A stretch of DNA of 15,761 nucleotides from Actinomycetales bacterium (GTDB lineage Bacteria; Actinomycetota; Actinomycetes; Actinomycetales; Microbacteriaceae). The stretch is taken from the NCBI GenBank assembly GCA_015655255.1, contig JAATFJ010000158.1, positions 1 through 15,761 of the forward strand, read 5' to 3'. Every line of letters begins with the position of its first letter. Within the stretch, counting starts at the first letter, position 1. The position numbers were made by a program, and so were the translations under genes. The notes under the pieces were generated by a model, which worked only from the letters and a program-made list of their open reading frames with translations, was not told the DNA's origin and ran no database searches. Shown one piece after another: positions 3,591 to 15,761 of this stretch.

Positions 3591-3596
3591 GGAGTG

Positions 3597-4895
3597 ATGG
3601 GTGTCGTGTCGGATGCGAAGAAGGCGGGAGAGCTGCTGCGGCGCGCTCTCCGTTCCCGTTCCGCCGTCCAGCGCGTGCGCAAGATGCTCATCGGCCGCCC
3701 CCATCTTCCGCGGGATCGGTACTCCGTCGCGGTCTACTTCGCTGACGGCGATGTGAACATCTATCAGATGAGGCAGTGGTATCGCCCGCTCGCGGAACTG
3801 GCCGAGACTCATCCTGTCGTCGTGCTGTCCCGCAACGCGACGGGGGCCGAGATCCTTCTCGACGAATCCCCTCTCCCCGTGGCGTTCATCCCCACGGTGC
3901 GCGATCTGGAGAGGTTCCTCGCGGCGCAGGACATCCGCGTCGTGCTCTACGTGAACCAGAACACGCGCAATTTCCAGATGTTCCGCTACGGTCGGCGCTG
4001 GCACGTGTTCATCAACCACGGTGAGTCCGACAAGATGTACATGACCACGAACCAGTACAAGGCCTACGACTACGCGCTCGTCGCGGGGCAGGCGGCACGG
4101 GACCGGCTCTCCCGCACCCTGTGGGACTACGACATCGATCAGCGCACGCTGGAAGTCGGTCGCCCCCAGGCCGACCACTATTCGGGCACGCTGCCCTATG
4201 CGCCCGACGACCGCACGGTCGTGCTCTACGCGCCGACGTGGGAGGGCGACCGGCCCAGCGCCCACTATGGTTCGATTGCGACGCACGGGGAACGGCTCGT
4301 CGCGGCCGTCCTCGCCAGCGACGCGCATCGACTGATCTACCGGCCGCATCCCCGCAGCGGTGTCGTCGACCCCGCCTACGGAGCCGCACATCGGCGGATC
4401 CTCGCGGCGATCGAGGCCGCGAATGCGGCCGACCCCTCCGCCTCCCATGTGCACGACGACGGGGCGGAACTCGGATGGCAGCTCGCCGCCGCCGATGTCG
4501 CCATCGTCGATATCTCCGCGATGGTCTACGACCGGCTCGCGGCGGGTAAGCCCCTCCTCGTCACCCGGCCGCTCGACGACCGCGCATCCGTCGACACGAA
4601 GGGCTACCTCTCCGACTGCGAATGGCTGCGCGCGGATGATGCGGGCGACATCATCGCCGAGGTCGAACGGGTCCGCGCCGACGAGACGGCCATCGCCAAG
4701 CTGCGGATGTGGGTGCAGCACTACTTCGGTGACACGACGCCCGGGGCGGCGACGGCGAAGTTCCATGCGGCTATTGCCCTCCTCCTCGAGCGGTGGGAGC
4801 ACTGGCATGCCGCCGAGATCGGAGCGACGCCCTCCGACGAGGACGACGACGACGAGGAGAGCAAGGACTCCGACGAGGGCAGCGGCCTCGGCTGA
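3597..4895 (+). CDS. Divergent CDP-glycerol glycerophosphotransferase-like protein with acidic tail
   Basis: A 432-residue protein of the CDP-glycerol glycerophosphotransferase superfamily (GT-B fold), probably building or decorating a phosphate-containing wall polymer. Recognisable are VLYAPTWEGDR (V209-W215 onward), RPHPRSG with His251, and a membrane-associating basic N-terminus (residues 10-35). The two other landmarks differ from the pair at 1-2390: WHGTPLK is replaced by INHGESDKMYM (His141 kept, the proline-lysine pair lost), and TDYSS is replaced by VDISAMVYD (from Val304). It also has N-terminal sequence of its own (RYSVAVYFADGDVNIYQMR). The C-terminus ends in a strongly acidic low-complexity tail of about 20 residues (DEDDDDEESKDSDEG). 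These changes suggest a separate subfamily with its own donor or acceptor. Family assignment is firm; substrate is unknown. Confidence 0.82.
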   Translation: MGVVSDAKKAGELLRRALRSRSAVQRVRKMLIGRPHLPRDRYSVAVYFADGDVNIYQMRQWYRPLAELAETHPVVVLSRNATGAEILLDESPLPVAFIPTVRDLERFLAAQDIRVVLYVNQNTRNFQMFRYGRRWHVFINHGESDKMYMTTNQYKAYDYALVAGQAARDRLSRTLWDYDIDQRTLEVGRPQADHYSGTLPYAPDDRTVVLYAPTWEGDRPSAHYGSIATHGERLVAAVLASDAHRLIYRPHPRSGVVDPAYGAAHRRILAAIEAANAADPSASHVHDDGAELGWQLAAADVAIVDISAMVYDRLAAGKPLLVTRPLDDRASVDTKGYLSDCEWLRADDAGDIIAEVERVRADETAIAKLRMWVQHYFGDTTPGAATAKFHAAIALLLERWEHWHAAEIGATPSDEDDDDEESKDSDEGSGLG

Positions 4896-12440: not shown

Positions 12441-14687
12441 TCAAGACACCCCGGGGCCGGCGGTGTAGTCGCTTGTGGAGCCGCCGATGCTCTCGATCCG
12501 GGGAACCGATCCGTTCCCGAGCCGGAGCAGTGCCTCGTAAGTCTGCACATGGTTGAGCTTGCCGTCGCTCATGTAATAGACATCGGGGCCGTTGTTGAAC
12601 CGCACGATCGATTTATCGGCGAGAACGGGGGTGCCGAAGGTGAAGGATCCTCGCTCGGACGCGGAACGGGTCTGGATCGTCGGAGAACTCCCTCCGATGG
12701 CGACCGCGGTGTTCCATGTGACGACGTAGCGGAGTACCCCGGAACGCATCTGATAGACGGCGGTATCACCGGAGAAGCTCAGCAGCACACCCTCCGCGGC
12801 GAGGAGCGGAGCTCCGATGCCGTAGGAACGGGCGCTGTCCGCTGACCAGCTCACGAGGGCGAATCGCGCCGAGCCGTTGTTGAGCGCCACAAGGTCTTCG
12901 TAGTGCTGGATGAGGCGGATCGAGGTCGACCCATCGAAGGCATAGATGTTGGAGTTCCCCTGCGTGGCGACGAACAGCGGCGCGGCGAGCGTTCCGCTCG
13001 ATGCGGGGAAGGCGGCGCAGTCCCCGGCGGCGAGGCGTGTCGCGCGCAGGGTAACGGTGCCGGTCACCGTGCGGAATCCGTTGCCGTCGACGACGCGTAG
13101 CTCCGAGCCGCACCGCACGGTCGGCAGTAGCGTGTCCTTGGCGATCGACGCGGAGGGGAGGGCACTCGCATCGACTACGTCGACGGTGCCCTTCGCTCCA
13201 TAGTGCTGCGCGAGTTCGATGGAGGGGACGTGGATGAGCGTGGACGTCGCCGTCGTCAGATAGACCTCGCCGCGATTCGCAGCACGGACAAGGCGCCCCG
13301 CGCCCAGATAGGGGGTTCCGAGGCTATAGGCGTTGAAGGTCGTCTGAGCGATCGTCGCGGAGTAGGGGGACGTGCTCCCCGTCACGCTCGCGAGCGCCGT
13401 GGGATCGACGACATAGCGTTTCTGCGTTCCGGAGATCCAGTAGACCTCCGGTTTTCCGAGGAGACGAACGGTGGAATTGACCTCCGCGCCCGTGCTGAAC
13501 GCATCGATGACGGCCGCGGGCATGTCCGTGGCGTTCTGCGCGATGTAGCCGAGTGCCGTGACCAGATCCACGGTCGGGAAGCGATGCTTCGTGCCGTCCT
13601 TCTCCAGTAGATAGATCGTGCCGTTTCGGGGATCGCGTACGGAGCGCGTCACCGTTCCGCCATCGCGGAGGGCGTTCACCGTGGCGGGGGAGACGATCTG
13701 GAACGCCCCGAACTTCGCGGTGAGGACGTCGAGATCGTCGACGGTGCTCACGTGGTAGCGCACGCCGTTCGCGGCGAGGTAGATGGCGGCGCCGTCGGTG
13801 GCGCGGATGAGGCTTGTTACGTTGATCGAGGTCGTGGTCGACTGCGTTGATCCGAACCACTGCGTGAAGAAGCTGTAGAAGTTCCTGTTGCCGTAGGCCG
13901 AGCAGCTGTCTCCCGTGCCGAAGCCCGCCTTGAGTGCCGCGGCGTTCGGCTGATAGGGCGTGTAGTAGTAGAGGGCCGCGGTGGCCTTGTTCTGGATGTA
14001 CACCGCGCTGCTGCCGCACGCGGCGTTCGGGCTGTAGCGGATGTTCCAGGTCTTGCCGGGGGCGTAGTAGGTGAAGTACTTGCCCTCGGTGTAGATCTTC
14101 ATCTGGCGGGCGGCGCCGTAGAGCTGGTTGAAGAGCCCGGCGTAGGCAGGATCGCACGCGGCGGTGTCGGGGCAGGCCATGCCGAAGGCCTTCGTGTAGC
14201 GCCAGTCGCTCGGCCAGGTGTGCGTGACGAGGCTCTGCTCCTTCTCCAGCATGACGAGGAGCACCTGCGGATTGATGCCGCAGGACTGGGCCACCTTGGC
14301 GATCATCGTCGCCGCGGACTCATTACTGCTGCCGGCGTACCCGTTGCAATACGCATCGGCCGTGCGGTTGGGGGTTTTCTGGCGATAGTCCTTGAGGCAG
14401 GTGTAGCCGCTCTGGCACGTGGAGACCTTGCTGCGGAGGAAGGAATCGATCTGCGCTGCCGTCATCGTCGAGCTGTTGAAGAAGACGGCGTCGGACATGA
14501 TGTTCCCGGCCTGGAAGCCGTCCGTGACGAGGGCCTTGGCGATCGCTGTCGATGCCGTGCGCCCCGCGGAGACCTCCGTCGCCGAGGCCGTGGTCGATGG
14601 GACGAACACGAGCAGTGCGGCAGCGAGGAGCGCGCCGATGGCACTCGCGACGACCCTGCGCAGGCGGGACGGTGAGGTGAGGGGCAC
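12441..14687 (-). CDS. Secreted protein: cysteine-rich, possibly lysozyme-like domain plus seven propeller-like repeats
   Basis: A 748-residue exported protein of a type often labelled 'hemagglutinin' or hypothetical in actinobacteria; function not established. Start GTG 14687 is chosen because CACAAT lies exactly 6 nt upstream and because it gives a clean signal peptide: basic RLRR (8-11), hydrophobic core 12-29, cleavage expected after Ala-Ser-Ala (34-36). The frame also opens at GTG 14723. Residues about 60-280 form a compact domain with many cysteines (91, 97, 114, 136 and several more) and the helix PQVLLVMLEKEQSLV (Glu148, Glu150), then FGMACPDTAACD and NQLYGAARQM; a glutamate in such a helix before a serine recalls transglycosylase folds, but this is inference. 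From about 290 to the end there are seven copies of a unit like VYYMSDGKLNHV, about 55-80 residues apart, suggesting a beta-propeller or adhesive array. It lies upstream of the exporter genes on the same strand. Confidence 0.8.
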   Translation of the reverse strand: MPLTSPSRLRRVVASAIGALLAAALLVFVPSTTASATEVSAGRTASTAIAKALVTDGFQAGNIMSDAVFFNSSTMTAAQIDSFLRSKVSTCQSGYTCLKDYRQKTPNRTADAYCNGYAGSSNESAATMIAKVAQSCGINPQVLLVMLEKEQSLVTHTWPSDWRYTKAFGMACPDTAACDPAYAGLFNQLYGAARQMKIYTEGKYFTYYAPGKTWNIRYSPNAACGSSAVYIQNKATAALYYYTPYQPNAAALKAGFGTGDSCSAYGNRNFYSFFTQWFGSTQSTTTSINVTSLIRATDGAAIYLAANGVRYHVSTVDDLDVLTAKFGAFQIVSPATVNALRDGGTVTRSVRDPRNGTIYLLEKDGTKHRFPTVDLVTALGYIAQNATDMPAAVIDAFSTGAEVNSTVRLLGKPEVYWISGTQKRYVVDPTALASVTGSTSPYSATIAQTTFNAYSLGTPYLGAGRLVRAANRGEVYLTTATSTLIHVPSIELAQHYGAKGTVDVVDASALPSASIAKDTLLPTVRCGSELRVVDGNGFRTVTGTVTLRATRLAAGDCAAFPASSGTLAAPLFVATQGNSNIYAFDGSTSIRLIQHYEDLVALNNGSARFALVSWSADSARSYGIGAPLLAAEGVLLSFSGDTAVYQMRSGVLRYVVTWNTAVAIGGSSPTIQTRSASERGSFTFGTPVLADKSIVRFNNGPDVYYMSDGKLNHVQTYEALLRLGNGSVPRIESIGGSTSDYTAGPGVS

Positions 14688-14693
14688 TTGGCT

Positions 14694-14699
14694 ATTGTG
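14694..14699 (-). promoter_or_regulatory. Leaderless -10 element for the secreted protein gene
   Basis: On the minus strand CACAAT, spacer AGCCAA, GTG at 14687: 6-nt spacing, the same hexamer as before the PH gene. It argues against the longer frame starting at 14723. Confidence 0.5.
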
Positions 14700-14717
14700 G
14701 CGTAAAGTGCCTGACGA

Positions 14718-14739
14718 TGCCACTGTTGCCTATGTGGCA
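14718..14739. repeat. Inverted repeat in the divergent region before rmlA
   Basis: TGCCAC (14718-14723) and GTGGCA (14734-14739) are perfect 6-bp arms 10 bp apart, one helical turn apart as in many dimeric repressor sites. It lies between the -10 elements of the divergent secreted-protein and rmlA genes. The rest of the 133-bp gap (14688-14820) shows no gene. Operator function is a guess. Confidence 0.3.
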
Positions 14740-14814: not shown

Positions 14815-14820
14815 ATGAGG

Positions 14821-15761
14821 GTGAAAGGCATCATTCTCGCGGGGGGATCCGGCACCAGGCTGCATCCGATCACCCTCGGCGTCTCCAAGCAGCTCATCCC
14901 GGTCTTCGACAAGCCGATGGTCTACTACCCGCTGTCGACTCTCATCCTCGCGGGCATCCGGGACATCCTCGTCATCACGACGCCGCACGACGCGTCGCAC
15001 TTCGAGCGTCTTCTCGGCGACGGCTCGCAGTTCGGCATCAACCTGACGTTCGCGCAGCAGCCCTCGCCGGATGGCCTCGCACAGGCGTTCACGATCGGCG
15101 CCGACTTCATCGGCGGCGATGAGGTCGCGCTCGTCCTCGGCGACAATCTTCTCTACGGCCCCGGTCTCGGCAGTCGGCTGCAGCGCTTCCACGGCATCGA
15201 CGGGGGAGCGGTCTTCGCCTACTGGGTCGCCGAACCGCAGGCCTACGGTGTCGTCGAGTTCGATGCGGAGGGGCACGCGATCTCCCTGGAGGAGAAGCCT
15301 GCCCAGCCGAAGAGCAACTTTGCCGTTCCCGGTCTCTACTTCTACGACAACGACGTCGTCGAGATCGCCCGGAACCTGAAGCCCTCCGCCCGCGGCGAGT
15401 ACGAGATCACCGATGTCAACCGTGCCTACCTCGAACGTGGCAAGCTCCAGGTCGAGGTTCTTCCTCGCGGCACAGCCTGGCTCGACACGGGCACCTTCGA
15501 CCAGATGACGGACGCTGCCGACTACGTGCGCGTCCGGACTCGCGGCCGTTTCGTGTCCGACGGGACCCTGCTCTCCGTTGGTGGCAAGCTGCCCTTCAAC
15601 ACCAACGGCGGCGTCCTCTGCAACAACCACCCCACCACCCGCGGCGGCATCACCAAGGTGATCGAAGCCGTCCGCCAACGGCGCGTCGAGGCGTGCCCTA
15701 AGGTGCATTTCCCCAACTGCGACCTGGCCGTCGCCCACTGCAACGGCGGCTCGCTCGGCAT
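14821..15761 (+). CDS. rmlA: Glucose-1-phosphate thymidylyltransferase, C-terminus replaced by thiolase sequence, open at window end
   Basis: RmlA joins dTTP and glucose 1-phosphate to dTDP-glucose, the first step towards dTDP-rhamnose for envelope glycans. Residues 1 to about 237 are a textbook Rml[18 protein letters not shown] (nucleotide-binding loop G8-R13), [28 protein letters not shown] with Asp108, [28 protein letters not shown], and [18 protein letters not shown] (220-237). A normal RmlA would go on with about 50 more residues of the helical C-terminus (usually ...RTIEERQG-like). Here the frame continues without a stop as [15 protein letters not shown], then clearly thiolase-type sequence to the window end. 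The catalytic core is complete; the C-terminal dimer/allosteric region is missing. The hybrid is either a contig artefact or a real fusion. Confidence 0.88.
15532..15761 (+). other. Thiolase C-terminal fragment fused in frame to RmlA
   Basis: From about codon 238 of the rmlA frame the sequence matches what is known of thiolase-family (acetyl-CoA acetyltransferase, lipid-transfer-protein type) C-termini: [19 protein letters not shown] (242-260), [16 protein letters not shown] (261-276) with the NHP motif at 269-271, [17 protein letters not shown] and NGGSLG. In this family the last motif is usually HGTGG or HGNGG; here it reads HCNGG. The fragment is coding, in the same frame, and continues past the window. 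No thiolase N-terminus, catalytic-cysteine region or related fatty-acid gene is present elsewhere in the window. The family call is made by recall of the motif pattern, not by a search. Confidence 0.75.

Follow-up and report, generated by a model that had tools for sequence, protein, structure and literature searches.

An open frame that passes from RmlA to a thiolase

The window analyzed here, a stretch of 15,761 nucleotides taken at its full length, ends in a reading frame that raises the question of whether two unrelated protein families were fused in a living bacterium or were brought together artificially. The frame (14815–15759, forward strand) stays open up to the end of the window, with neither a stop nor a frame change, and its translation agrees with the protein string quoted in an earlier note on this DNA, which had described RmlA switching in frame to the C-terminus of a thiolase. 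Pfam profiles placed NTP_transferase (PF00483) at residues 4–237 (E 7.9e-72, profile positions 1–241 of 245) and, with the whole frame as query, Thiolase_C_1 (PF22691) at residues 244–314 (E 1.1e-15). Searched alone, the tail matched Thiolase_C_1 with an E value of 7.8e-17 and a score of 61.8 bits, above the gathering cut-off of 28, along profile positions 67–134 of 144. By these profiles, the frame carries an RmlA nucleotidyltransferase core followed by a match to the C-terminal domain of thiolases. Among solved structures, residues 301–372 of the 383-residue chain of thiolase 4u4e aligned to frame residues 243–314, and no RmlA chain in that search aligned past residue 244. The open frame, the Pfam matches and the structural alignments together confirm the switch that had been described.

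Position of the switch

The limits of the two parts were located by comparison with their relatives. Scanning of genome contigs from 84,980 species returned at least 595 relatives of the RmlA part, and the best 80 were kept. In all of these, blastn similarity to the window extended beyond 15300, and it ended at or before 15531 in 79 loci and at 15534 in the remaining one. Ends were observed at 15498 (3 loci), 15500 (12), 15501 (9), 15515 (1), 15530 (18) and 15531 (36), so that similarity stopped at 15530 or 15531 in 54 of the 80 loci and earlier in 25. In the genus of Microbacterium sp. C5A9, 210 of 295 genomes matched a 151-base piece across the junction (15471–15621), and among the matches listed none went beyond base 61 of the query, which corresponds to 15531. 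On the thiolase side, similarity to the best plasmid-borne genes set in at 15542.

The window end is accordingly divided into rmlA (rfbA), encoding residues 1–239 of a glucose-1-phosphate thymidylyltransferase (14815–15531, forward strand), ten join bases with similarity to neither the RmlA nor the thiolase relatives (15532–15541), and the C-terminal piece of a Thiolase_C_1 gene (15542–15761, forward strand). The break, previously put at about 15529–15550, was borne out and could be drawn slightly more sharply. A palindrome, GTCCGGAC, was spotted by eye within the join bases.

Relatives of the two parts

The RmlA part belongs to Microbacterium, with 92% protein identity to the locus of Microbacterium sp. 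C5A9, 93% to P0122 and 92% to both P0124 and P0125, the last two named Microbacterium. For the tail, 7337 proteins matched, of which 120 were listed; by hand count, 34 of these bore the name of an organism or a sample. Alphaproteobacteria, mostly Phenylobacterium and other Caulobacteraceae, accounted for 31 of the 34, the others being one Pseudomonadota, one Chloroflexota and one soil metagenome. The best matches among the 120 reached 79% identity over 92% of 78 residues, and two of them were named Phenylobacterium (e.g. P0010). The window end hence draws on two sources of relatives, as a chimeric contig would: Microbacterium on one side and, on the other, named relatives drawn almost entirely from the Alphaproteobacteria.

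Occurrence of tail relatives closer to the window was also surveyed. At the level of the phylum, 87 of 296 genomes contained a match, the best at 68% identity. Within the genus, 38 of 295 genomes matched at E 1e-3 or better; in eight of them the match was strong (E 2.1e-19 or better, a cut placed where the list showed a gap), the best ones being 57–67% identical, and in the 30 further genomes it was weak. Thiolases as such are therefore not foreign to the genus. A search for Thiolase_C_1 in 12 near Microbacterium genomes gave no match in 11, and the domain was found in 5 of 14 control genomes, including Caulobacter vibrioides. Among the 20 plasmid records listed of 47, the best DNA match of the tail was from the betaproteobacterium Variovorax paradoxus (80.7% identity in DNA, 70.8% in protein). 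Judged from protein identity, the donor of the tail was likely an alphaproteobacterium, a point that 72 residues are too few to settle.

Both genes are incomplete

The 3' end of the RmlA gene was read in 16 relatives (L001–L013, L015, L027 and L041). Past the equivalent of the motif DYVR, all 16 continue with T[MIV][EQ][RK]R and have a C-terminus of the ordinary kind, about 52 residues long, whereas the window diverges after residue 239 and lacks the C-terminal part that its relatives have. The earlier note had named such a continuation in a related genome as an outcome that would speak against a fusion, and it fits the reading preferred there, in which a chimera was formed close to the end of a contig.

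The thiolase piece is likewise far from a complete protein. Relatives among the 120 listed are mostly about 385–400 residues long and, by comparison with P0010, the piece is without about 305 upstream and about 14 downstream residues of a protein of about 390 (compare residues 301–372 of 383 in 4u4e); even of the C-terminal domain, only profile positions 67–134 are present. From the join to the window end, which cuts the thiolase piece, there are 230 bases, and the gene at base 1 of the window is cut in the same way. Because genes are cut at both ends, the window is presumably a whole contig.

Composition, possible errors and repeats

The earlier note had advised a comparison of composition between the two sides; made with GC content and codon usage, it did not separate them. 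In the tail, GC amounts to 67.7%, and pieces of 220 bases taken from the window average 68.3%. At third codon positions the tail has 90% GC and the rmlA part 87%. The codon score of the tail stands at the 68th percentile of 333 windows. These values lie within the spread of the window, and in 220 bases, which offer little to judge by, they argue neither for nor against a foreign origin.

At columns where at least 97% of sequences share one residue, the tail carries five residues never seen there, compared with 0–3 in each of 26 comparison thiolases. The background for this count combined the 26 loci with one in six of 119 proteins, with gapped L095 and L096 left out of 28 loci and one of the 120 proteins yielding no extractable piece. 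Tallied against the 120 listed proteins alone, the excess looked stronger because that list is narrow. In DNA, the tail deviates at 2 of 72 invariant columns, against 0–4 for members of the panel in leave-one-out comparisons. An error-rich last read could lie behind the unusual residues; sequencing errors were not taken as established, the residue count being the highest by a modest excess and the DNA count being not unusual.

The longest word shared between 15532–15761 and the rest of the window, on either strand, has 13 bases; its place in the tail is 15740, at a distance from the join. The window thus contains no long repeat that would explain the join, and homology-driven joining by such a repeat was rejected.

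The rest of the window

Elsewhere the window looks ordinary for an actinobacterium. Nine of ten scanned proteins matched Pfam families, among them CDP-glycerol glycerophosphotransferases, glycosyltransferases, biotin ligase, purK, purE and a LytR-CpsA-Psr protein, and the segment 7493–9438 aligns at 75% to a further Microbacterium locus (L002). Since other parts align with Microbacterium loci, only the window end stands out as foreign.

Two features of this region were observed in passing. Three neighbouring genes on the forward strand (7–957, 954–2390 and 3594–4895) have matches to PF04464, the CDP-glycerol glycerophosphotransferase family, although that of the third is weak; they suggest a cluster for a cell wall polymer of the teichoic-acid type. 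The reverse-strand frame 12441–14723 encodes a protein of 760 residues with no Pfam match at E 1e-5; several Microbacterium loci have kept the DNA for its N-terminal part (within about 13838–14541) next to rmlA, at 79% in that of strain C5A9.

Search for the fusion or the junction elsewhere

In a search with the full-length protein, a true fusion should come out on top. By precomputed Pfam annotation, no protein with both domains was present among the 120 listed of 7999 matches to the full-length query, nor among the 120 listed of 7337 matches to the tail. P0137, checked as one of the RmlA hits with an apparent coverage of 83–92%, proved to be an ordinary RmlA with a weak alignment of its own C-terminus, and it was rejected as a fusion. 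The exact 33-base junction was not found in viral contigs. A 361-base piece from the window end matched 47 plasmid and 3 phage records, the phage records in the RmlA part only and the plasmid records (20 listed of 47) in the thiolase part. As no record covered 80% of the piece, a phage or plasmid origin of the joined piece was rejected.

Origin of the join

Combined, these comparisons make it very probable that the rmlA–thiolase frame is a chimeric join at a contig end, an artefact of assembly or library preparation, and not a natural fusion. The switch is sharp, the two sides have different sources of relatives, the relatives keep a normal RmlA C-terminus and both parts are incomplete. No listed relative crosses the join, the relatives of the two sides belong to different phyla, and no fusion protein occurs among the listed hits. 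A Microbacterium contig ending inside rmlA would have been joined artificially to a fragment of a thiolase gene, about 220 bases of its 3' part, which probably derives from another bacterium. The closest listed named relatives of this fragment are Alphaproteobacteria. The joining may have taken place during assembly or in a chimeric library fragment. We infer that no living genome carries the join and that the contig ends where the window ends; the step that made the join is deduced in the same manner.

Against a chimera speak the stop-free frame, the composition of the tail, which fits the window, and the occurrence of thiolases in the genus. By our reckoning, two coding pieces on the same strand should join in frame by chance about one third of the times, and for this reason the open frame lends no strong support to a real fusion. 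That the join is present in a living genome is improbable. It would be so if DNA of this Microbacterium had truly been deleted or rearranged in such a way that the start of rmlA came to lie before the end of a thiolase gene, its own or horizontally acquired, yielding a hybrid with little or no function. Such an event would agree with the kept frame, with a composition like that of the window and with the strong tail matches in 8 of 295 genomes of the genus. It is nevertheless very improbable in itself, as it was seen in no listed relative, the join falls right at the window end, and the best relatives of the tail, Phenylobacterium among them, reach 79% identity against 57–68% for strong matches in the actinobacterial genomes sampled.

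More improbable still is a selected, working fusion, in which a dTDP-glucose synthase core and the C-terminal part of a thiolase from another phylum would form a new two-domain protein of Microbacterium. The continuous open frame is in its favor, but the RmlA part would have to work without the roughly 52 C-terminal residues kept in all 16 relatives read, and the thiolase piece without some 305 residues and hence most of its fold; moreover, no two-domain protein appears among the listed hits, and the frame has no end within the window. Were it real, the protein would unite two unrelated families whose relatives lie in two phyla, a combination unseen among the homologues listed. With a chimeric join as the preferred reading, the apparent fusion should not be recorded as a novel domain architecture, and binning or annotation of the contig should proceed without its last 230 bases.

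Comparison with known proteins and chimeric contigs

Residues 1–239 are those of an RmlA/RfbA protein (PF00483) of Microbacterium, at 92–93% identity, and the window protein differs from these enzymes in being without the C-terminus of about 52 residues that the 16 relatives read have kept. Residues 244–315 align without gaps over 72 positions, with up to 57 of 72 identical, to thiolases with Thiolase_C_1 (PF22691), whose best named representatives are from Phenylobacterium. Unlike these thiolases, the window has a C-terminal piece only, and five of its residues deviate at columns that are otherwise nearly invariant. Chimeric contigs are described in PMC7299287 as a known outcome of metagenome assembly; the window end would resemble the contigs described there in combining sequence from more than one genome in a single contig.
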